Shown: positions 26,785-42,797, numbered from the stretch's first letter. The stretch: 64,000 nt of DNA from Betaproteobacteria bacterium (GCA_016194905.1 JACQAP010000028.1:1-64000); one strand, 5' to 3'. The notes: generated by a model not told the origin, from the sequence alone. Translations and numbers: made by a program.

Positions 26785-28758
26785 TCAGGCGCGCTGGCCG
26801 GCTCGCAGTGGTTGCTGCGCGGGAACGATGGCAGGAAATGGCAGCGGACGGGCGAACAGAAACCCCTGGCCATACTGGACCCCCATTCCCACCAGAATGT
26901 CCATCACGGCCTGATTTTCGACCCACTCCGCGACGACCTGTTTATTCAGGCCGCGGGCGACGTCGCACAGCGCGCCCACGAAGAGCCGGCTGGCATTGTC
27001 GGAAGCGAGGTCGCGCACGAAGCTGCCATCTATCTTGAGGTAATCGACGTCGAAGCGCTTCAGGAAATAGAAGGAGCTGAAGCCCGCCCCGAAATCGTCC
27101 AGCGCAAAGCGGCAACCCAAGCCTTTCATCTGAGCGATGAATTCCTGGGTCACATCGACACTCGACATCGCCGCCGTTTCCGTGATTTCAAACACCAGTT
27201 GCGAATGGTCTATCGGAGCCGCCGCGAGCATGCTCTGGAAACGCCGCACCCAGTGCGGATCGGAAATGCTGGTGCGCGACAGGTTCACGAAAAAGCGCGT
27301 CTTGCGGCCGCGGAAATCCGGCCCCTGCAGCGCGTCGATGACCTTGCTGACTACACGCAGGTCGATTTCCTGTGCCATTCCCAGCGACTCGGCCACCTCG
27401 ATGAACTGTCCCGGCAGCACCATGCCGCCGTTGCGGTCGAGGATGCGAACGAGAATCTCCTGATGCACCGATGTGCGGTCGGACAGCCGGATCACAGGTT
27501 GCGAGCACAGCATGACCCTGTTGTCGTCGAGTACTTCGCGCAGCTCGCGCGCCCAGTGCACGCGCTTGTGGGTGCCCCGCAAATCGTCCGGATTGTGATC
27601 ATGAAGCCGCACGCGGTTGCGGCCGTTGTCCTTGGCCTGATACATCGCTATGTCGACATTGGCCAGCAGGGTGGCCACGTCGGCGCCGTGGAAAGGATAG
27701 ATGGCGACACCGATCGAAGCTGTCAGAGTCGACAGGCAGCCCTGCCCCGACACCGGAAACTTGTAATGGCGCAGCGCCGTCAGTGCGCGCTCGCCGAATT
27801 GCGAGGCATCTCCGCGCAATGCGTTTGGAAGGTGCAGCGCGAACTCGTCTCCGCCCAAGCGGAATACCTGCGCGTTTTCATCCTTGAACAGATCCTTCAT
27901 CAGCCCGCCGATGGCGATGAGAAGCTGGTCGCCGGCGCGATGACCGAAGTTGTCGTTGATGTATTTGAAATGATCGACGTCGAGCAGTACCACCGACCCT
28001 TTTTCGCCGTCGGCCAGAGCAGCTTCCAGCGCCTTCTGCAGAGAAACGCGGTTAGGCAGACCGGTCAGTCCGTCGTGAGTCGCGAGGCGCTCGATTTCCA
28101 GCGCGGCATGGTGCTGCTCGGTGACGTTGCGTGCGGTGCCGCGCAGTCCGACGATACGGCCTTCCTCGTCATGTGAGACCCGCGCGTTGATGCCCACCCA
28201 GCGGTCCGTGCCGTCGGTGGAAATCAGGTGGGTAAGGTAGTTCTTTACTTCGCCGTTCTTGCGCAGCGCCGACAGGAAGCGGCGGTTGGACACATGCTGG
28301 GGACGCGCCTCGAAATCGAAGAAGCAGCCGCCGTGCAGATCCTTTGGCCGCAAGCCGAAGAGCTCGACGCAGGCATTGTTCAGATAAGTGAAGCGGCCCA
28401 GCGCATCGGTCGTCCAGATCAGATCGTGGGAGGTTTCGACCAGATCGCGATAGCGCGATTCGCTTTCCAACAACAGCTGGATGATGCGGCGCTTTTCCTT
28501 CAGGGTACGGCGCGCGGCGGCCAGCTGATCTTCCATCCTGCCGGTCTCCGGCCTGACGAGATCGTGCTTATCGCTCGCCACGACCGTGGCCGAACCGGCC
28601 AGCCCATCGATGATCTCGCGCGCATAGCGGCGGTGGCCGCCGTCGGTTCGGCGGGCGACCAGCACGCCTTGTGCGTCCCAGCGCCGCAATTTCTGCAGCG
28701 GAATGCCCAGCCGTGCCGCCGCTTCCTGAATCGTGTACTCGGGAAGATCCTGCGCCAT
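26785..28758 (-). CDS. MerR-HTH / PAS / GGDEF / EAL protein, candidate DSF-responsive c-di-GMP regulator
   Basis: A 657-residue protein with unusual domain order. Residues about 6-50 are a MerR-type helix-turn-helix (YTIQEAAARLGI, LRRWDAQG, RTDGGHRRY). A coiled segment (80-100) precedes a PAS domain (about 105-225, RYRDLVETSHDLIW). The GGDEF domain has an intact motif at 302-306. In the EAL domain the motif is EIL (E434), but the other catalytic residues are visible: N in FVNLS, E in FEITET, DD in ALDDFGAG, K in YLKIDGSF and E in VVAEWVE. Both cyclase and phosphodiesterase activity are therefore possible. It directly follows rpfF. The PAS-GGDEF-EAL core resembles RpfR, the BDSF receptor of Burkholderia, but the N-terminus is a DNA-binding domain. 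An ATG at 28821, immediately after the rpfF stop, is an alternative start adding 21 Arg-rich residues. Confidence 0.85.
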   Translation of the reverse strand: MAQDLPEYTIQEAAARLGIPLQKLRRWDAQGVLVARRTDGGHRRYAREIIDGLAGSATVVASDKHDLVRPETGRMEDQLAAARRTLKEKRRIIQLLLESESRYRDLVETSHDLIWTTDALGRFTYLNNACVELFGLRPKDLHGGCFFDFEARPQHVSNRRFLSALRKNGEVKNYLTHLISTDGTDRWVGINARVSHDEEGRIVGLRGTARNVTEQHHAALEIERLATHDGLTGLPNRVSLQKALEAALADGEKGSVVLLDVDHFKYINDNFGHRAGDQLLIAIGGLMKDLFKDENAQVFRLGGDEFALHLPNALRGDASQFGERALTALRHYKFPVSGQGCLSTLTASIGVAIYPFHGADVATLLANVDIAMYQAKDNGRNRVRLHDHNPDDLRGTHKRVHWARELREVLDDNRVMLCSQPVIRLSDRTSVHQEILVRILDRNGGMVLPGQFIEVAESLGMAQEIDLRVVSKVIDALQGPDFRGRKTRFFVNLSRTSISDPHWVRRFQSMLAAAPIDHSQLVFEITETAAMSSVDVTQEFIAQMKGLGCRFALDDFGAGFSSFYFLKRFDVDYLKIDGSFVRDLASDNASRLFVGALCDVARGLNKQVVAEWVENQAVMDILVGMGVQYGQGFLFARPLPFPAIVPAQQPLRAGQRA

Positions 28759-28821
28759 GGTGCGCCTGACGCTCCGTTTTCGCCGGTTGATCGGGCCGAC
28801 GAATCCCATTCGCCGGCGCAT

Positions 28822-29772
28822 TCAGTGCAGATGCTTGGCCATGCCGGTGTCTTCCCGGCGGGCCATCGGGTGCAGGTCGTTCTGGCGGGAAACCAGGCGC
28901 TGCATGAGCTTGAGATCGCGGCCGCTCAGGCTGAGCGCGGTATCCACCCAGACCTCGACCACACCCAGCAGTTCCTCGTAGTCCAGCTTGTGGACACGGC
29001 GCCGGGCTGCGGCAATGCCGGCCATGCCAATACGGCTACGGCTGCGGGACTTGATGAAATTCCCGACTTCGCCCTCGCCCCGGCCCTGATCCACTACCAG
29101 ATCCACCACACCCATCGCCAGCATATCATCGGCGCCATAGACCCGGCCACTGGAGATCAGTTCTTCGGCCGCGCGTTTGCCGACTTTTCGTTCCAGGAAC
29201 GAATAGGCGCCCATCCCCGGGAAGAGGTTGAACAGGATCTCGGGAAAGCCGAAGCGGGACTGGCGTTCGGCCACGATCACGTCGGAAGACAACGCGGCCT
29301 CGAAGCCACCGCCCAGGCATTCGCCCTGGACCAGCGAAATCGTCGTGATCGGCAGCCCGTGGCCGACGTAGTTGCGGTACAGGACGTCCACGCAGGCTCG
29401 TCCGTAACCCAGCAATCCGTCGCGGTCATGCGCGTCGATCAGTCGCGTGAACAGGCTCAGGTCGCCGCCGAGATTGAAGACGCCCGGCACTTTCGACGCC
29501 AGTACCGCATATTCCAGGGGCATGCGTTCGCCCTGGCACTCGATCGCCCCGCCGCTGTGAGTCATGAACTGGCAGTAGCGATTGAGATCCTGCAGCAGTT
29601 CGGGATTGAAGTTCGGCCGCGGGCTCGGATTCCATCTCAGCCACATCGAATGCTGTTCCCTGTCGTAGAGCGCGGAAAGCTGCTCGGAAAAAAAGTATTC
29701 GGTGGATGGAGCGGCGGCCTGAGACCCTGGCGTTGCGGGAAGGAGTAGTTCCTGCGGGACATTCATGTCCAT
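28822..29772 (-). CDS. rpfF: RpfF-like diffusible signal factor synthase (crotonase fold)
   Basis: A 316-residue crotonase-superfamily protein that matches RpfF enzymes rather than beta-oxidation hydratases. The two catalytic glutamates lie in GECLGGGFEAALS (E158) and FGFPEILFNLFPGMGAYSF (E178), 20 residues apart as E141 and E161 are in Xanthomonas RpfF. VPGVFNLGGDLSLF and the C-terminal VWVDTALSLSGRDLKLMQRL are also RpfF-like. RpfF makes cis-2-unsaturated fatty acid signals (DSF/BDSF) from acyl-ACP by combined thioesterase and dehydratase activity. AGGAG seven bases upstream fixes the ATG at 29772. Transcribed with the downstream GGDEF/EAL gene and divergent from an acyl-ACP synthetase. Confidence 0.85.
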   Translation of the reverse strand: MDMNVPQELLLPATPGSQAAAPSTEYFFSEQLSALYDREQHSMWLRWNPSPRPNFNPELLQDLNRYCQFMTHSGGAIECQGERMPLEYAVLASKVPGVFNLGGDLSLFTRLIDAHDRDGLLGYGRACVDVLYRNYVGHGLPITTISLVQGECLGGGFEAALSSDVIVAERQSRFGFPEILFNLFPGMGAYSFLERKVGKRAAEELISSGRVYGADDMLAMGVVDLVVDQGRGEGEVGNFIKSRSRSRIGMAGIAAARRRVHKLDYEELLGVVEVWVDTALSLSGRDLKLMQRLVSRQNDLHPMARREDTGMAKHLH

Positions 29773-30111
29773 TTTAGTTCTCCTGAGCGAATGGTTTGAG
29801 GACGACGGAGAGGCCGCTTCCATGTTGTTTCTCCCAAAAGCGGTTTCCGCTCTGACTTTAGACGAAGACGCGATCGAAAGGCAAATCTAACACTCTGATA
29901 GGTTTACTTTTTTGGCTTCTTAGTCAATGTGTTGAATTAACTTGTCCCTGTAAGGCGACAAAAACTTCACAAATTTGTTTGGATGCGGACTGCCATGACA
30001 TCTGTGTAAGTGATTTAATATAGTGCTCCAAGCCATGGATTTTGTTTGCGTTGTGGATTTCATGCCGATATCCGCACGCCATGACGACAACGATTGCCGG
30101 TTGAGTGCTCT
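29773..30111. promoter_or_regulatory. AT-rich divergent control region between rpfF and the acyltransferase gene
   Basis: A 339-bp region with no gene, visibly more AT-rich than its surroundings. It holds a perfect 10-bp palindrome ACAAATTTGT (29969-29978). For the plus-strand gene there is a possible promoter with ATGACA (29995) and TATAGT (30019) 18 bp apart. For rpfF a minus-strand TTGACT (29927-29922) is the best -35 candidate but its -10 is poor. The palindrome could be an operator for the MerR-domain protein, but this is inference only. Confidence 0.4.
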
Positions 30112-32322
30112 ATGTCCTCCCTGATTCGCTTGCTGCTGCGGTTGCTTTTTCGTGTCCGCGTCCTCGGTGACTTGGCGCCGTTCGGGCATGCCGATCGCTT
30201 GTTGATTGTCGCCAATCACCATTCCCGCCTCGACGCCGTGGTGCTGGCCCTGTTTCTGCCGCGTGATCCCGTCGTTATCGTGCCGCCAGATGAAACCGGA
30301 GGCCGGCTCGTACGCTGGCTGCTGGCGCATGTCCGCCACGAAGCCCTGGATCTCAACAACCCTTTGAGCATGAAGCGGGTGCTGCGCCTGCTACGCGCCG
30401 GGCGTCCGGTGGTGCTCTTCCCGGAAGGGCGCATTGTCGAAAATGGCGCAGTCATGAAGATCTACCCGGTGCCCGCGTTAGTCGCCCTGAAAAGCGGAGC
30501 CAGCGTGCTGCCGGTGCACGTGGAAGGGGCGGGACAGTGGTTCAGCCGTTCCGGTTCGGCGTCGCGGCTGCGGCAATGGTTGCCTGCTATCACGCTGCGG
30601 GTATTTTCAGCGACGCGCATCGACGGTGGCGCCGCCGGGAGCGCACGGCGACGGCGCGCCTTCGCCACCCGCCGGCTCGCCGCGGTCATGCAGGCGATGG
30701 CGGTGCAATCGCACGCCTGCAAGCCGCTGTTCGAATGTTTCCTGGACGCCGTCTCCGTGCACGGCCGCAAGACCTTCCTCATCGAGGACCAGAGCGAGAA
30801 GCCGCATACCTACGGGGATCTCCTGCGCATGAGCCTGGCGCTGTCGCGCCTGTTGCGGCGGCACACCGACGACCGCGAAAACATCGGCGTGCTGCTGCCG
30901 AATGTGGTCAGTGCCGTCGCCGTGGTGATGGCATTGTCGGCGGCGCGCCGCGTGCCCGCGATCTTCAATTACTCGGCCGGTCCGCTGGCGGTGGAAAGTG
31001 CGCGCATTGCCGCGGGTGTGCGCACGGTGATCACGTCGCGCCGGTTCATCGAGCAGGCGCATCTGCAGCCGCTGCTGGATGCGTTGCCAGGCTGCACCCT
31101 CATCTATCTCGAGGATTTGCGCAGCCAGTTCGGGTTTGCCGACAAATTCTGGCTGATTGCATTCGCGCTGCGGCTGCCGCGACTGGCCATGGCAAAGCAA
31201 TCGACGCTGGACCCCGCGGTCGTGCTGTTTACGTCCGGTTCCGAGGATCGACCCAAGGGCGTGGTGCTGTCGCATCACGCCATCGTCGCCAATGTCGCGC
31301 AGATCCGGGCGGTGTTCGACTTCTCGCCTGCGGACAAGGTGCTCAATCCGCTGCCGCTCTACCACGCCTATAGCTTTACCGCCGGCGTGATGCTGCCGCT
31401 GATTACCGGCACGCGGGTCAATCTGTTCATCTCTCCGCTGCGCTATCGCGCCATTCCGGAAATTGCATACAAGCGCGACTGCACCATCCTGTTCGGTACC
31501 AGCACTTTTCTGTCGTTCTACGCGCGCTATGCCAATCCGATGGATTTCAGCCGGCTGCGCCACGTCATTTCCGGCGGCGAAAAACTGTCACCGGAAGTGT
31601 CCAGGATCTGGATGGAAAAATTCGGCGTGCGCATCATGGAGGGTTACGGCTCGACCGAATGCGCGCCGGTGATCTCGCTGGCCACGCCGGCGGCTTACCG
31701 TCGCGGCGCAGTCGGCAGCTTCCTGCCCGGCGTTGAACATCAGATCGAGCCCATGGACGGCATCGACAAAGGCGGCGTGCTGCACGTGCGCGGTCCCAAC
31801 CTGATGCTGGGCTATTACCGCTATCAGAATCCGGGCGTGATCGAGGCGCCGAAGTCCTCGGTCGGCGAAGGCTGGTACGACACCGGCGACGTCGTCGATA
31901 TCGATCACGATGGCCTGGTCTCGATCTCCGGGCGTGTCAAACGGTTTGCCAAGATCGCAGGCGAGATGGTATCCCTCGACATGATCGAGCATGTGGCGCG
32001 CGAGGCCTCTCCGGATTTTCATCATGCGGCGGTGCTCAATGCGCAGGATTTCGGCGGCGAGACCACCGTGCTGTTCACGACCGATCCCTGGCTCACGCGC
32101 GGCCGCCTGCTGGAGGCGGCGAAGCAACTGGGGACGCACGATCTTTCGGTCGCACGCCGCCTGGTCCCACTGAAGGAATTGCCGCTGCTGGCTTCGGGAA
32201 AGATCGATTACGCCGCGCTCAAAAGTCTGATCGAGGGCGATGTGGTGAAGCGGCTGCTGGCCGCCGCGATGATGAATCCTGTCGATGTCGAGGAAGGATC
32301 GCAGCCTACTTCGAGTAAGTGA
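30112..32322 (+). CDS. aas: Bifunctional lysophospholipid acyltransferase / acyl-ACP synthetase (Aas-like)
   Basis: A 736-residue fusion. Residues about 1-200 form a PlsC-type acyltransferase with the HX4D box (NHHSRLD) and FPEGR. Residues about 210-730 form an AMP-binding ligase with FTSGSEDRPKGVVLSH, EGYGSTECAPVIS and YDTGDVVDID. E. coli Aas re-acylates lysophosphatidylethanolamine and ligates fatty acids to ACP. The ATG at 30112 is chosen over the TTG at 30094 for its normal N-terminus. Being divergent from an RpfF-type synthase, it could charge free fatty acids to ACP as precursor or recycle the signal, similar in concept to RpfB; this is inference. Its last 17 bp overlap the convergent gene on the other strand. 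Confidence 0.85.
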   Translation: MSSLIRLLLRLLFRVRVLGDLAPFGHADRLLIVANHHSRLDAVVLALFLPRDPVVIVPPDETGGRLVRWLLAHVRHEALDLNNPLSMKRVLRLLRAGRPVVLFPEGRIVENGAVMKIYPVPALVALKSGASVLPVHVEGAGQWFSRSGSASRLRQWLPAITLRVFSATRIDGGAAGSARRRRAFATRRLAAVMQAMAVQSHACKPLFECFLDAVSVHGRKTFLIEDQSEKPHTYGDLLRMSLALSRLLRRHTDDRENIGVLLPNVVSAVAVVMALSAARRVPAIFNYSAGPLAVESARIAAGVRTVITSRRFIEQAHLQPLLDALPGCTLIYLEDLRSQFGFADKFWLIAFALRLPRLAMAKQSTLDPAVVLFTSGSEDRPKGVVLSHHAIVANVAQIRAVFDFSPADKVLNPLPLYHAYSFTAGVMLPLITGTRVNLFISPLRYRAIPEIAYKRDCTILFGTSTFLSFYARYANPMDFSRLRHVISGGEKLSPEVSRIWMEKFGVRIMEGYGSTECAPVISLATPAAYRRGAVGSFLPGVEHQIEPMDGIDKGGVLHVRGPNLMLGYYRYQNPGVIEAPKSSVGEGWYDTGDVVDIDHDGLVSISGRVKRFAKIAGEMVSLDMIEHVAREASPDFHHAAVLNAQDFGGETTVLFTTDPWLTRGRLLEAAKQLGTHDLSVARRLVPLKELPLLASGKIDYAALKSLIEGDVVKRLLAAAMMNPVDVEEGSQPTSSK

Positions 32323-36507: not shown

Positions 36508-39500
36508 TCAGGAGTGCAGGTGACGCCCTTGCGCTTGCTCGGCATTCCGGTCCAGAAAAAGCTCGAAGGCGTCGATACCCAGCGGCTTGCTGAACAGGAA
36601 ACCCTGGATTTCGTCGCAGCCATGGGCGTGCAGGAAATCGAGCTGGGGCACGGTTTCCACGCCTTCGGCGACGACTTCGAGCTTCATGTTGTGCGCCATC
36701 GCGATGATGCTGCGTGTAATCGACGCATCGTCGCGATCGTCCGGCAGATCGCGGATGAACGAGCGGTCGATCTTCACGCAGTCGATCGGGAAGCGCTTGA
36801 GATAGGCGAGAGACGAATAGCCGGTGCCGAAATCGTCGATGGCGATGCGCACGCCGGTGTCGCGCAGCGCCTGCAGCAGCTTGATCGCGCCCTCGGCGTC
36901 GCGCATCACCATGCTTTCGGTGATCTCGAGCTCCAGGTTTTCGGCCGGGAATCCGGTCTGCGCGAGGGCCTGGCTGACCCGCATCGCCAAACCTTCATCG
37001 TACAATTGCCGCACCGACAGGTTGACCGCGACGCGCAGGTTGCCATGTCCGGAGGCGCGCAGCGCCTGCCCCTGGCGGCAGGCTTCCGTCAGCACCCAGT
37101 CGCCGATCGGAACGATCATGCCGGTCTCCTCGGCAATGGCGATGAAGTCACCCGGCTGCATCAGGCCCTTCTCGGGATTGTGCCAGCGCACGAGCGCTTC
37201 CATGCCGGCGACGTTGCGTGAGGACATCTGCATCTTCGGCTGGAAATGCAGCATGAATTCGCGACGCTCGAGCGCGCGCCCCAGCGCCGATTCGATCGAC
37301 AGCCGCTCGCGCCCATGCGCATCCATGTCCGGCGAGAAATACTGGAAGCCGTTTTTGCCGGATTCCTTCGCGCGATACATGGCGACGTCGCTGTTGCGCA
37401 GCAGCGTCTGCAAGTCGGTGCCATCGTGCGGGCTGGTGCTGATGCCGATGCTGGCGGTGATCAGGAATTCCTGCTCATCGATGACCAGCGGCCGTGATGT
37501 GGCTTCGAGGATTTTGTTGGCCACGGCGCTCACTGCGTCGATGCTGGAGGCATCCTGCATCAGGATGACGAACTCGTCCCCGCCCAGGCGCGCGAGCACG
37601 TCGCCGTCGCGCAGGCAGGTGTGCAGCCGGGCGGCGACCTGCTTCAACAACTGGTCGCCGGCCTCGTGGCCGATGATGTCGTTGATGTTCTTGAAGCGGT
37701 CGAGGTCGACCACCATCAGCGCGCAATTCAGTCCCTGGCGCCGGCTGGCCGCGATCGTGTGTTCGAAAGCGCGCTGGAAGTGCGCGCGGTTGGGAATGCC
37801 GGTCAGCTCGTCGTGATAGGCCAGATACTCGATGTGTTCCTCGGCGCGCTTGCGGTCGGTGATGTCGCGAATGATGACGCTGGCGCACAGTTCGCCCGAT
37901 CGGTCACGGAAAGTGGTCGACGATACTTCCACCGGCACCCAGCTTCCGTCCTTGCGCCGCATTTTAAGCTCGCCGCGCGCGGCACCCTCGCGCTGATGCT
38001 CGTCCAGCAGGGCTGCCACGCGGGGATCGTCCGGCTCGGTCAGACCCCGGCGTCCAAGCGCGCGCAGTTCGTTTTCCGTATATCCCAGCAGCCGGCACGC
38101 CTGCGCATTGGCCGAAAGGATGCTGCCGTCGGGTTGCATCAGGAACACGGCGTCGATGCTGTGCTCGAACAACGCCTGATAACGCGCTTCGCTTTCGCGC
38201 AACGTGTCGGCGAGTACGCGTCGTTCGGTAATGTCTTCATCGGCCGCCACGCCGCCGACGATCTCGCCTTCGGCCGAGACGATGGGTGCCGCCGAGTGCA
38301 GGATGGTCTTGCGGCTGCCGTCGAAGCATTCGATGTCCACGACTTCATTGCGCGAGGTTTCTCCGTTGGCGAGCGCGCGTGCCATGCCCCAGTCGGCGGC
38401 TTCCAGCGGCTCGCCGGAATCCGATCGCCAGCCCCTCGGGCCCGCGGAGTGTGGCGACCCTTGCGCCGGTGATGCTCCCCAGATGCGCCTGCTGGCCGTG
38501 TTGCCCAGCACCAGATGGCCCTCGCTGTCGGCGACCCGGACGCCGACCGGCAGCGTATCGAGCACCTGGCGCAGCATCTGCTCGCTGTAAGCGACCGAGC
38601 GTGCCAGATCGTTCCGGCGACGCAGTTCCTGCATCAGCAGCCAGGCCAGCATCATCGTGGCCAGCGTGAAGGCGATCAATATCACGACCGTGACCTTTTT
38701 TTCCTCGCGCCAGCCGGCCAGTACTTCTTCCTCGCTCAGACCGACCTGCACCATCAGCGGCGTATCGGCTACCCGGCGGGCGCTGTAGATGCGGGCTACG
38801 CCGTCCACCGCGCTGACGCTGCGCGATGTGCGGGAGCCATGGCTCGAGAGCAGGTCTTTCAGCGTCAGGTTTCCCCCGGTGGGAACGCCCAGCCAGGAAG
38901 GGGCCTCCGGCGCGCTGGCGATCAGTTCGCCGTCCTCATGCATCAGTCCAATCACGCCGTCGCGTCCGACCTCGATGTCACGGTAGATCGACTGGAACAC
39001 GCCAGGTTCGAGTGCCACGACGATGGCGCCGGCGAAACGGCCTTCGGCGTCGTCGAGCCGCCGGCTCGCGGTGACAGACCATGCGCCGTTGCCGCGCTCG
39101 ACAATCGGCTTGCCGACATAGAGCCGGCCGGAATGCGAGCGATGCCAGTTGAAATAGTCTCGATCCGAGAAATCCCGCGGCGCGACCGGATGAATATCGG
39201 AGTCCTGCACCAGCATGCCGCGTGCGTCGAGCACGAACAGTGTGCGGGCGTTGGGCAGTTGGCCGAGTTTTTGCGCGAGCAGGGTGTGCATGCCGGCGCC
39301 GGCGGGGTCGCGCAACGCCGGCATCTGCAGCCACATTTCGCCCAGACCGCGCAGCGTAGCGTCCACCGATTGCAACATCGCGGCGGTACGCTGCTCCACT
39401 ATCTGGGCGAGGTTCCGCGTGGTGCGTTCGGCATCGCGCAGGCTGGCATCTCTCGACTTGGCCAGGGCGAGGAATGCAAGGGTGAAGAGGGTAACGACCA

Positions 39501-39588
39501 GCAGGGCGGCAAGCCCCGGGATCAGGTAGAGAAGAAGACGCTCTCGCTCTCGCGGGCGTTCGATTGCGGCCGGAGGCTGAGGCGTCAC
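36508..39588 (-). CDS. Membrane Cache / PAS / PAS / GGDEF / EAL protein
   Basis: A 1026-residue bifunctional c-di-GMP enzyme. A membrane helix at about 18-40 (LYLIPGLAALLVVTLFTLAF) is followed by a periplasmic sensor region of the Cache type (about 45-295), a second helix (about 300-325), and two PAS domains (about 335-460 and 470-590). The GGDEF domain has ARLGGDEFVIL (G669). The EAL domain has MEALVRWHNP (E797) plus DDFGTGYSSLAYLKRFP and VVAEGVET. Both sites look catalytically competent. The GTG at 39588 puts the first helix near the N-terminus; no good ribosome binding site is seen, and an upstream extension to 39795 cannot be excluded. Ligand unknown. Confidence 0.85.
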   Translation of the reverse strand: MTPQPPAAIERPRERERLLLYLIPGLAALLVVTLFTLAFLALAKSRDASLRDAERTTRNLAQIVEQRTAAMLQSVDATLRGLGEMWLQMPALRDPAGAGMHTLLAQKLGQLPNARTLFVLDARGMLVQDSDIHPVAPRDFSDRDYFNWHRSHSGRLYVGKPIVERGNGAWSVTASRRLDDAEGRFAGAIVVALEPGVFQSIYRDIEVGRDGVIGLMHEDGELIASAPEAPSWLGVPTGGNLTLKDLLSSHGSRTSRSVSAVDGVARIYSARRVADTPLMVQVGLSEEEVLAGWREEKKVTVVILIAFTLATMMLAWLLMQELRRRNDLARSVAYSEQMLRQVLDTLPVGVRVADSEGHLVLGNTASRRIWGASPAQGSPHSAGPRGWRSDSGEPLEAADWGMARALANGETSRNEVVDIECFDGSRKTILHSAAPIVSAEGEIVGGVAADEDITERRVLADTLRESEARYQALFEHSIDAVFLMQPDGSILSANAQACRLLGYTENELRALGRRGLTEPDDPRVAALLDEHQREGAARGELKMRRKDGSWVPVEVSSTTFRDRSGELCASVIIRDITDRKRAEEHIEYLAYHDELTGIPNRAHFQRAFEHTIAASRRQGLNCALMVVDLDRFKNINDIIGHEAGDQLLKQVAARLHTCLRDGDVLARLGGDEFVILMQDASSIDAVSAVANKILEATSRPLVIDEQEFLITASIGISTSPHDGTDLQTLLRNSDVAMYRAKESGKNGFQYFSPDMDAHGRERLSIESALGRALERREFMLHFQPKMQMSSRNVAGMEALVRWHNPEKGLMQPGDFIAIAEETGMIVPIGDWVLTEACRQGQALRASGHGNLRVAVNLSVRQLYDEGLAMRVSQALAQTGFPAENLELEITESMVMRDAEGAIKLLQALRDTGVRIAIDDFGTGYSSLAYLKRFPIDCVKIDRSFIRDLPDDRDDASITRSIIAMAHNMKLEVVAEGVETVPQLDFLHAHGCDEIQGFLFSKPLGIDAFELFLDRNAEQAQGRHLHS

Positions 39589-39733
39589 GGAAATCGCGGT
39601 AAGGTCACATTGCGAAGTGTACCTCGGATGTTCCGCGCCCGCGATGCGATCGTATCTATTCAGGACTGGCGCGCAAACCCGATCAACCCGCCCCGTTCCT
39701 CCCTCCCGACGACTGCGCTGCCGGCCGCTCGGG

Positions 39734-40282
39734 CTAGAACATCGGCTTCGGCTTTGCCTCGCGGTAGCGGGCCACGCTGGCCATGATCTCGGCACCGGCC
39801 TCTGCGGGCCCGAGCCAACCCGTGACTTTCACCCATTTACCGGGTTCGAGATCCTTGTAATGCTCGAAGAAATGCCGGATCTGAGAAAGGCGCTCGGGCT
39901 GCAGGTCTTCGGGCTTGTGCCAGTGCTTGTACATCGGCAACACGGAGTCGACCGGAACGGCCAGCAACTTGGCGTCCCCGCCGGCCTCGTCGACCATCTT
40001 CAGCACACCGATCGGCCGGCAGCGGATCACCGCGCCCACGTTGACCGGGAAGGGCGTGATCACGAGCACGTCGGCCGGGTCGCCGTCTTCGGACAGGGTG
40101 CGCGGGATGTAACCGTAGTTACAGGGGTAGCGCATGGCCGTCATCATGAAGCGGTCGACGAATAGCGCGCCGGTTTCCTTGTCCACTTCGTACTTGATCG
40201 GGTCGGCATTCATCGGGATTTCGATGATCACGTTGAAATCGTCGGGCAGGTCGCGTCCGGGCGTCACACGGTCGAGGTTCAT
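39734..40282 (-). CDS. ppa: Inorganic pyrophosphatase
   Basis: Soluble family I pyrophosphatase that drives biosynthetic reactions by hydrolysing PPi. The 182-residue protein contains [28 protein letters not shown] and the metal-binding signature DGDPADVLV. The ATG at 40282 gives the standard N-terminus ([11 protein letters not shown]); the 16 residues upstream are not conserved in type. The gene lies alone between a GGDEF/EAL gene and an MgtE-like gene. Confidence 0.95.
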
Positions 40283-41681: not shown

Positions 41682-42797
41682 ATGAGCGAAGCCTTCACCT
41701 GCGGTCACTCGTCCTCGCCGAACTGGCGCGACGCCGCGGCGCAGTGCCTGCATCAGGCCGGCAAGGGTCCGCCCGGTGCCAATCTCGGCTTTCTCTATAT
41801 CACCGACAATTTCGCCGGCGAAGTCGCGGACATGGTGGCGTACTTCCGCGCCAATACCGGCATCCTGCATTGGTCCGGAACCGTCGGCATGGGCGTGTTC
41901 GCCACCGGTCGCGAGTACTACGATGAACCGGCGGTTGCGATCATGCTATGCGCCTTCGAAGAGGGCGGCTTCCGGGTGTTCTCCGGCGTGCGCTCGCCGC
42001 CGGATCTCGAGCGCCAGTCGCTGCACTTGGGCGAGCTGCCGGCGAACTTTGCCGTTGTCCACGGCGATCCGCGTAACGCCCAGTTGCCGCGATTGATCCG
42101 CGATCTGGCTGGCTGCATGGAAAGTGGCTTCGTCGCCGGCGGGCTGACCAGTTCGCGGCGCGAAGTCGTACAGATCGCCGACGGTGTGGCGAAGGGCGGA
42201 TTGTCAGGCGTGCTGTTCTCCGACGACGTCGTGGTCTCGACGCGGCTCACGCAGGGCTGCACGCCGATCGGCCCGCGGCATACCATCACCGGCAGCCAGC
42301 AGAACATCATCATCTCGCTCGATGGCCGTGCCGCGCTCGACGTATTCAAGGAAGATGTGGGCGAACTGGCCTGGAAAGATTTCTCGCAGACCGGCAGCAA
42401 CGTGTTTGCCGGGCTGTCGATATCGGGTTCCGGCACCGGCGACTATCTGGTGCGCAATCTCGTCGGTATCGACCCGGTGCACAAACTGGTGGCGATCGGC
42501 GACGTGCCGCAGGCCGGCGCGCAGATCATGTTCTGCAGGCGCGACGAGCCCGGTGCCATCGAGGACATGTCGCGCATGCTCGACAGCATCAAGAGCGGGC
42601 TGTTCGGGCGTCCGCGCGGTGGTTTGTATTATTCCTGTGTCGGACGCGGGCCGAACCTGTTCAGCGGCGAATCCGAGGAGGCCGGCATGATCCGCGAGGC
42701 GCTCGGCGAGTTTCCGCTGGTCGGATTTTTCTGCAACGGCGAAATATCGCACAACCGGTTGTATGGCTACACGGGAGTGCTGACGCTGTTCCTCTGA
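41682..42797 (+). CDS. FIST domain signal-transduction protein
   Basis: A 371-residue protein with FIST_N (about 25-220) and FIST_C (about 225-365) domains. FIST domains are predicted small-ligand sensors, often linked to chemotaxis or c-di-GMP output. Motifs: TGILHWSGTVGMGVFATGREYY and the C-terminal ALGEFPLVGFFCNGEISHN, typical of FIST_C. Starts 3 bp after the MgtE stop, so the two are probably cotranscribed. Ligand unknown. Confidence 0.85.
   Translation: MSEAFTCGHSSSPNWRDAAAQCLHQAGKGPPGANLGFLYITDNFAGEVADMVAYFRANTGILHWSGTVGMGVFATGREYYDEPAVAIMLCAFEEGGFRVFSGVRSPPDLERQSLHLGELPANFAVVHGDPRNAQLPRLIRDLAGCMESGFVAGGLTSSRREVVQIADGVAKGGLSGVLFSDDVVVSTRLTQGCTPIGPRHTITGSQQNIIISLDGRAALDVFKEDVGELAWKDFSQTGSNVFAGLSISGSGTGDYLVRNLVGIDPVHKLVAIGDVPQAGAQIMFCRRDEPGAIEDMSRMLDSIKSGLFGRPRGGLYYSCVGRGPNLFSGESEEAGMIREALGEFPLVGFFCNGEISHNRLYGYTGVLTLFL

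Follow-up and report, generated by a model that had tools for sequence, protein, structure and literature searches.

We describe a candidate module for fatty-acid signalling, made up of three genes and one operator, in 64,000 nucleotides of betaproteobacterial DNA (Betaproteobacteria bacterium, GCA_016194905.1 JACQAP010000028.1:1-64000; hereafter the window). An rpfF-like crotonase gene is followed directly on its 3' side by the gene for a regulator in which a MerR/BldC-type helix-turn-helix (HTH) head precedes PAS, GGDEF and EAL domains; an aas-like gene is divergent to rpfF, and a 21-bp palindrome lies upstream of rpfF. We favour, with a probability of about 60%, the reading that the regulator is a transcription factor that couples a fatty acid resembling diffusible signal factor (DSF), together with cyclic di-GMP (c-di-GMP), to gene control. 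To our knowledge, known DSF pathways act on promoters indirectly or via separate proteins. The open-access literature, in a search that did not cover subscription papers, yielded no description of a MerR-PAS-GGDEF-EAL architecture with rpfF, and the module, which recurs in many uncultured relatives of Burkholderia, has the appearance of a signalling switch not described before.

The pair and its domain order had been proposed in a first-pass annotation made from the window sequence alone; both minus-strand open reading frames were found where that annotation had placed them, and the arrangement is real and conserved. Across an order-level sample of 399 genomes, we identified 37 crotonase homologues (including that of the window) with 59–100% identity, the next having 52%. 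All 33 inspected loci of the group with at least 59% identity have a PAS-GGDEF-EAL gene directly 3' of the crotonase gene, with an N-terminal HTH detected in 32; at the remaining locus (L142) the reading frame is broken. The paired loci at this level of identity come from 10 families, and recurrence of the pair in at least 10 families excludes a chance arrangement. Inspected homologues with 52% identity or less have no PAS-GGDEF-EAL neighbour, except at L148, where the crotonase has 46% identity and the partner falls within the clade of the window regulator (100/99), its N terminus being a divergent HTH-like stretch. At that locus (L148:2912-7833, G144), rpfF-like, HTH-like-PAS-GGDEF-EAL and AMP-binding genes are co-directional and the consensus palindrome is lacking. 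Another genome (G067) has both a regulator-paired rpfF and an unpaired rpfF-like gene with 49% identity (L127, L111). A class-wide search of 369 sampled genomes detected no full-length homologue outside the order at E 1e-100. The aas-like gene is divergent to rpfF at most loci. Since it stays in place even at L121 and L122, where the flanking nuo/NUDIX synteny is lost, and since a congener (G001) that has nuoM-nuoN-NUDIX joined straight to a sorbosone-dehydrogenase-like gene and htpG misses aas, rpfF and the regulator alike, the three genes tend to be gained or lost jointly.

The strongest new evidence that the MerR-type head may bind DNA is the co-distribution of a candidate operator with the pair. 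When the regions upstream of rpfF were searched for motifs under a palindrome constraint, a 21-bp inverted repeat emerged, AAYCTAnCAnnnTGnTAGRTT, equivalent to AA(T/C)CTAnCAnnnTGnTAG(A/G)TT, with a log-likelihood of 394, as compared with 47–60 on dinucleotide shuffles. The repeat scores >15 bits at 34 of 38 loci. At 31 loci it runs straight into a −35-like TTG that has constant spacing to a −10-like T..A.T, the −35/−10 spacing being 17 bases in 25 loci and 18 in 6. The copy upstream of the window's rpfF is the sole occurrence in the window at up to 2 mismatches (0.19 expected), and no site >14 bits was found at 25 other loci, which comprise those with unpaired rpfF, those with RpfR-type rpfF, and L148. 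Of the 37 genomes with the pair, 20 contain the exact pattern, compared with 7 of the 362 without it (Fisher 4e-18). Away from rpfF, there are 23 sites in the former and 8 in the latter, a frequency about 28 times higher in genomes with the pair; these counts treat related genomes as independent, with the sites spread over several families. A reversed control pattern had 4 occurrences in the 399 genomes. We conclude that the palindrome is likely to be the operator of the paired regulator. The first-pass annotation had suggested that a single protein could sense a fatty acid, handle c-di-GMP and bind DNA; its interpretation as a whole is supported in part, and this suggestion strongly so by the co-distributed palindromic candidate operator.

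The palindrome could instead be the site of a different regulator that shares its distribution. It might, for instance, be the operator of another conserved factor such as a fatty-acid-responsive repressor of aas, with the MerR-type head serving for dimerisation or protein contact. Its position between two divergent operons suits this explanation. However, sites are missing from rpfF loci that lack the partner, enrichment across genomes is seen only where the partner exists, no exact site was found in the module-less congener G001, and most positions of the HTH core show no variation; we therefore consider such a factor quite unlikely.

Operators of classical MerR regulators lie between the −35 and −10 elements, in a spacer of 19–20 bp. 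The candidate operator does not have this position, since it abuts the −35 of a promoter with a 17–18 base spacer. A site beside the −35 would suit either class II-like activation, in which RNA polymerase is contacted, or repression, in which the −35 is blocked, and activation with positive autoregulation is our slightly preferred guess.

The head itself is an N-terminal winged HTH of MerR type. The first-pass annotation had made its proposal depend on a match of this segment to MerR models, and the match was obtained: Pfam MerR scores 41.5 bits (cut-off 28.2), MerR_1 33.4 and HTH_17 29.2, with PAS (50.3), GGDEF (142.4) and EAL (213.8) also all above cut-off. The motifs KLRRWD and GGHRRY are invariant in the window protein and eight homologues, and mean identity is highest for the HTH (76%), followed by PAS (71%), EAL (62%) and GGDEF (59%). 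The HTH profile matches TipA, CarH and BldC. A structural model of residues 1–106, with a predicted local distance difference test score (pLDDT) of about 83–88 across residues 11–50, gives its best alignments with BldC and CarH (Z 7.8–7.2, root-mean-square deviation 1.8–2.5 over 52–59 residues); these Z values alone are middling, and the top rows consistently belong to the BldC/CarH family. In the models, a helix of about 35 residues connects the HTH to PAS. The palindromic site and the long helix are consistent with a MerR-like dimer binding its operator. Overall confidence in the full-length model is modest (pLDDT 74.6, predicted template modelling score 0.44) and the structure matches of this model are dominated by the EAL and GGDEF domains, so we make no claim about inter-domain geometry. 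At two loci from one genus (L117, L119), the HTH and operator are kept although the GGDEF motif and a catalytic residue of EAL have been lost; this suggests that the core function of the regulator is to bind DNA.

Additional copies of the operator suggest a small regulon, whose members are candidates because the genes around the extra sites were called with a home-made codon-usage caller. None of the extra sites lies inside a gene called in this way (L243 gave no calls). In G132 (L230:4078-5951), a copy is positioned 120 bases before luxR, which is followed by luxI (Autoind_bind, GerE and Autoind_synth by Pfam), suggesting that the system sits upstream of an acyl-homoserine lactone (AHL) system in this genome; in B. 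cenocepacia, the Burkholderia DSF (BDSF) controls the AHL synthase (PMC3703271). A PAS-GAF-HD-GYP gene lies behind an extra site in G132, GGDEF-EAL genes do so in G038 and G321 and pilG-pilH-type genes in G321 (both kinds assigned by sequence reading rather than domain search), and a T2SSE/MshEN ATPase gene does so in G169. In two families (G002, G003, G148, G215), a Haem_oxygenas_2 gene beside a PAS-GGDEF-EAL gene follows a site. Genes of these kinds are typical outputs of DSF/c-di-GMP networks. Diiron enzymes are found in the Haem_oxygenas_2 superfamily, and some of them have fatty acids as substrates. Loci at which the Haem_oxygenas_2/TENA-like protein, whose function is unassigned, falls under a candidate operator are L246:4198-5040, L245, L238, L244 and L248. 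In G215, rpfF and the regulator gene are present only as broken pieces (L256), and the operator copy in front of the Haem_oxygenas_2 gene is still intact.

The crotonase scores 347 against a cut-off of 177 for NCBIfam PRK08788. Its nearest solved relatives are the RpfF structures 6dgn, 5fus and 3m6m from Burkholderia and Xanthomonas (E 1e-54 to 1e-51), with ordinary enoyl-coenzyme A (CoA) hydratase structures far behind (E 1e-15). In a phylogenetic tree, which settles neither the root nor function within the superfamily, the paired crotonases form one group (95/86) inside the RpfF/PRK08788 superfamily, the RpfF enzymes of RpfR-type loci form a clade of their own (100/100), and very long branches part the paired crotonases from ordinary enoyl-CoA hydratases, a grouping with which would, according to the first-pass annotation, have refuted its proposal. 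The 20-residue spacing of the catalytic Glu pair (E158/E178) had been read correctly in that annotation and likened to RpfF. The same spacing is general in hydratase-type crotonases, as with Glu144/164 of rat enoyl-CoA hydratase, and is therefore no signature of RpfF; we dropped it as a marker since it is non-specific.

We considered whether the partner is an RpfR orthologue in which the RpfF-interaction (FI) domain has been swapped for a MerR-type head, such that the locus would carry out ordinary BDSF signalling. The order of PAS, GGDEF and EAL is identical and the neighbour is of the RpfF family. However, a joint clade of the regulator's PAS-GGDEF-EAL region with RpfR/PdeR is rejected (approximately unbiased test, p-AU 0.00033), and the BDSF-contact residues S169, N172, Y183, R187 and N202 of RpfR correspond to N158, F161, K172, T176 and N191, only the last being kept. 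Gene orientation also differs. The locus had been thought to copy the rpfF-rpfR arrangement of Burkholderia and Cronobacter, but the genes are tandem here, whereas those are transcribed convergently (PMC6361424), as are the RpfF-RpfR-type pairs at L159-L162 and L164. We rejected RpfR orthology on the basis of the p-AU value and the single retained ligand residue, and consider ordinary BDSF signalling by such an orthologue extremely improbable. The FI domain is absent from the regulator, with the MerR-type HTH and helix at its position. Given the separate clade, the lack of an FI domain and the one of five BDSF contacts, the linkage between RpfF-type enzymes and PAS-GGDEF-EAL proteins most probably evolved twice, and so would have more than one origin.

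Several observations weigh against the reading of the regulator as a DNA-binding receptor for a DSF-like fatty acid, besides the treatment of related genomes as independent and the possibility of another regulator with the same distribution. A good palindrome site is missing at the rpfF loci L130, L131 and L031/L145. The candidate regulon is small and differs between genera. In the genome of the window, the Haem_oxygenas_2 gene has only a decayed site, and the second exact site (L200:1743-1763, contig C35) is 165 bases before the gene for an 859-residue cytochrome-c-like protein; in two congeners, the copy ahead of the Haem_oxygenas_2 gene has this identical sequence. On the enzyme side, the crotonase fails the curated RpfF equivalog cut-off (NF053515; 208 versus 550 bits), and characterised RpfFs are on the opposite side of the superfamily tree from the paired crotonases. 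With regard to the sensor, PAS keeps one of the five BDSF contacts and has no close solved relative: a search with PAS alone against Protein Data Bank sequences brought up a single weak match, to a histidine-kinase PAS at E 0.006, and RpfR was not retrieved.

The main rival is intracellular lipid homeostasis with no diffusible signal, in which the crotonase is an acyl-ACP (acyl carrier protein) dehydratase or thioesterase, Aas recycles the acid, and the regulator couples the state of the membrane lipids with c-di-GMP and motility genes. The cleavage of acyl-ACP by RpfF is believed to be offset by RpfB-type ligases. Consistent with this rival, Aas is the most constant neighbour and belongs to a family that re-acylates lipids, the crotonase score lies above the PRK08788 cut-off and below that of RpfF, most BDSF contacts are missing from PAS, and RpfF enzymes are promiscuous in cleaving acyl-ACP substrates (PMC6361424). 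In contrast, the extra sites precede luxR-luxI, genes for c-di-GMP enzymes and pilus genes rather than lipid genes, and the closest solved relatives of the crotonase are true DSF synthases. On balance, we regard lipid homeostasis as unlikely, less so than the explanation by another operator-binding factor.

Under the favoured reading of a fatty-acid- and c-di-GMP-responsive transcription factor, the RpfF-like crotonase would dehydrate 3-hydroxyacyl-ACP and release a free unsaturated DSF-like fatty acid, as judged from its family, and the divergent Aas-like enzyme would limit the signal by returning free fatty acids to ACP or phospholipid. PAS would sense either the fatty acid or some cue related to it, and GGDEF-EAL would make, break or sense c-di-GMP, the two inputs together setting DNA binding or activation. 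The HTH is predicted to bind the palindrome at the −35 of its own operon, which would thus be autoregulated, and of the small regulon. A more specific form of this scheme, which we hold tentatively and at somewhat less than even odds, is DSF-type quorum sensing with one protein as both receptor and transcription factor. This would amount to a LuxR-like one-protein circuit for fatty acids, with PAS reading the signal, GGDEF-EAL reading or changing c-di-GMP, the palindrome bound, the synthase autoregulated, and the whole positioned above an AHL system in some species.

Among known systems, the closest parallels in function are PdeR-MlrA and PdeL of E. coli, BluF-BluR, and RpfR-GtrR, and under the favoured reading the regulator would act like PdeR-MlrA or RpfR-GtrR fused into a single protein. 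RpfF/RpfR of B. cenocepacia and Cronobacter likewise has an RpfF-superfamily gene beside a gene for a cytoplasmic PAS-GGDEF-EAL protein, but RpfR has the FI domain instead of an HTH, convergent genes, other ligand residues and a place in another PAS-GGDEF-EAL clade. RpfR reaches promoters via GtrR in B. cenocepacia (PMC12838280), and the AHL synthase is under its control (PMC3703271), a similar function in which enzyme and DNA-binding protein are separate, whereas here they are one chain. The same difference applies to E. coli, which has no linked RpfF and in which the PAS-GGDEF-EAL trigger phosphodiesterase PdeR governs the MerR-type activator MlrA, in a system that also includes DgcM (PMC5052742), and the BLUF-EAL protein BluF governs MerR-type BluR (PMC3509220). 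The window regulator resembles PdeR/PdeL-type trigger phosphodiesterases in that its EAL catalytic residues are present at all positions examined. E. coli PdeL also has an HTH fused to EAL, binds to an imperfect palindrome upstream and is autoregulatory (PMC5052742), but its HTH is LuxR-type, and it has no PAS, GGDEF or neighbouring fatty-acid synthase. DsfR of B. cenocepacia, an acyl ligase linked to DSF, is a BDSF receptor that binds DNA itself (PMC12838280), but it is an acyl-CoA ligase with a leucine zipper rather than a MerR-PAS-GGDEF-EAL protein. BldC and CarH, closest in HTH fold and sequence, have no c-di-GMP domains, CarH being a B12 photoreceptor and BldC a bare HTH. BrlR of Pseudomonas aeruginosa, also a structure match to the HTH model, is a c-di-GMP-responsive MerR-family regulator (PMC5052742) but lacks PAS, GGDEF and EAL domains. 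A MerR-type regulator and an EAL enzyme, separate partners in E. coli, also exist as a single protein, and the fusion, operator and small candidate regulon make the action of a DSF receptor and c-di-GMP on transcription testable with one protein and one 21-bp DNA.

Table 1. Features of the rpfF-regulator locus, in window coordinates.
Feature	Position	Strand	Remarks
rpfF-like crotonase gene	28822..29772	-	316 aa; RpfF/PRK08788 superfamily; catalytic Glu pair E158/E178
MerR/BldC-type HTH-helix-PAS-GGDEF-EAL gene	26785..28758	-	657 aa; EAL catalytic residues and GGDEF motif intact
MerR/BldC-like winged HTH	28600..28740	-	residues about 7-53; invariant KLRRWD, GGHRRY
Long connecting helix	28433..28540	-	residues about 74-108
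PAS domain	28120..28465	-	residues about 99-213; conserved GRCFFDFE, NRRF, RW.GINAR
GGDEF domain	27600..28085	-	GGDEF motif intact
EAL domain	26820..27560	-	all catalytic positions examined intact; motif is E-I-L
Candidate operator	29884..29904	.	21-bp inverted repeat AACCTATCAGAGTGTTAGATT (minus-strand reading)
-35-like TTGCCT	29879..29884	-	one-base overlap with operator edge
-10-like region (CTAAAG/TAAAGT)	29855..29861	-	spacing 17-18
Divergent aas-like gene	about 30103..32322	+	acyltransferase and acyl-ACP synthetase; third module member

The rpfF-like gene has a further in-frame ATG upstream, at 29823; we prefer the start at 29772 because it is preceded by AGGAG. For the regulator, translation could instead begin at an ATG at 28819-28821, immediately adjoining the rpfF stop (TGA-ATG), with a product of 678 aa. 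An Rfam scan of the window returned no matches. Near htpG in the module-less congener G001 is a CRISPR array (L260:2-2011, contig C32) of about 32 units, with 29-bp repeats GTGTTCCCCGCACGCGCGGGGATGAACCG and a 61-bp period. Elsewhere in the window, a second PAS-GGDEF-EAL protein, apparently membrane-bound, is encoded at 36508-39795 (minus strand), and a FIST-like protein at 41682-42797 (plus strand); a FIST-like gene also adjoins an operator copy in G321 (L234).

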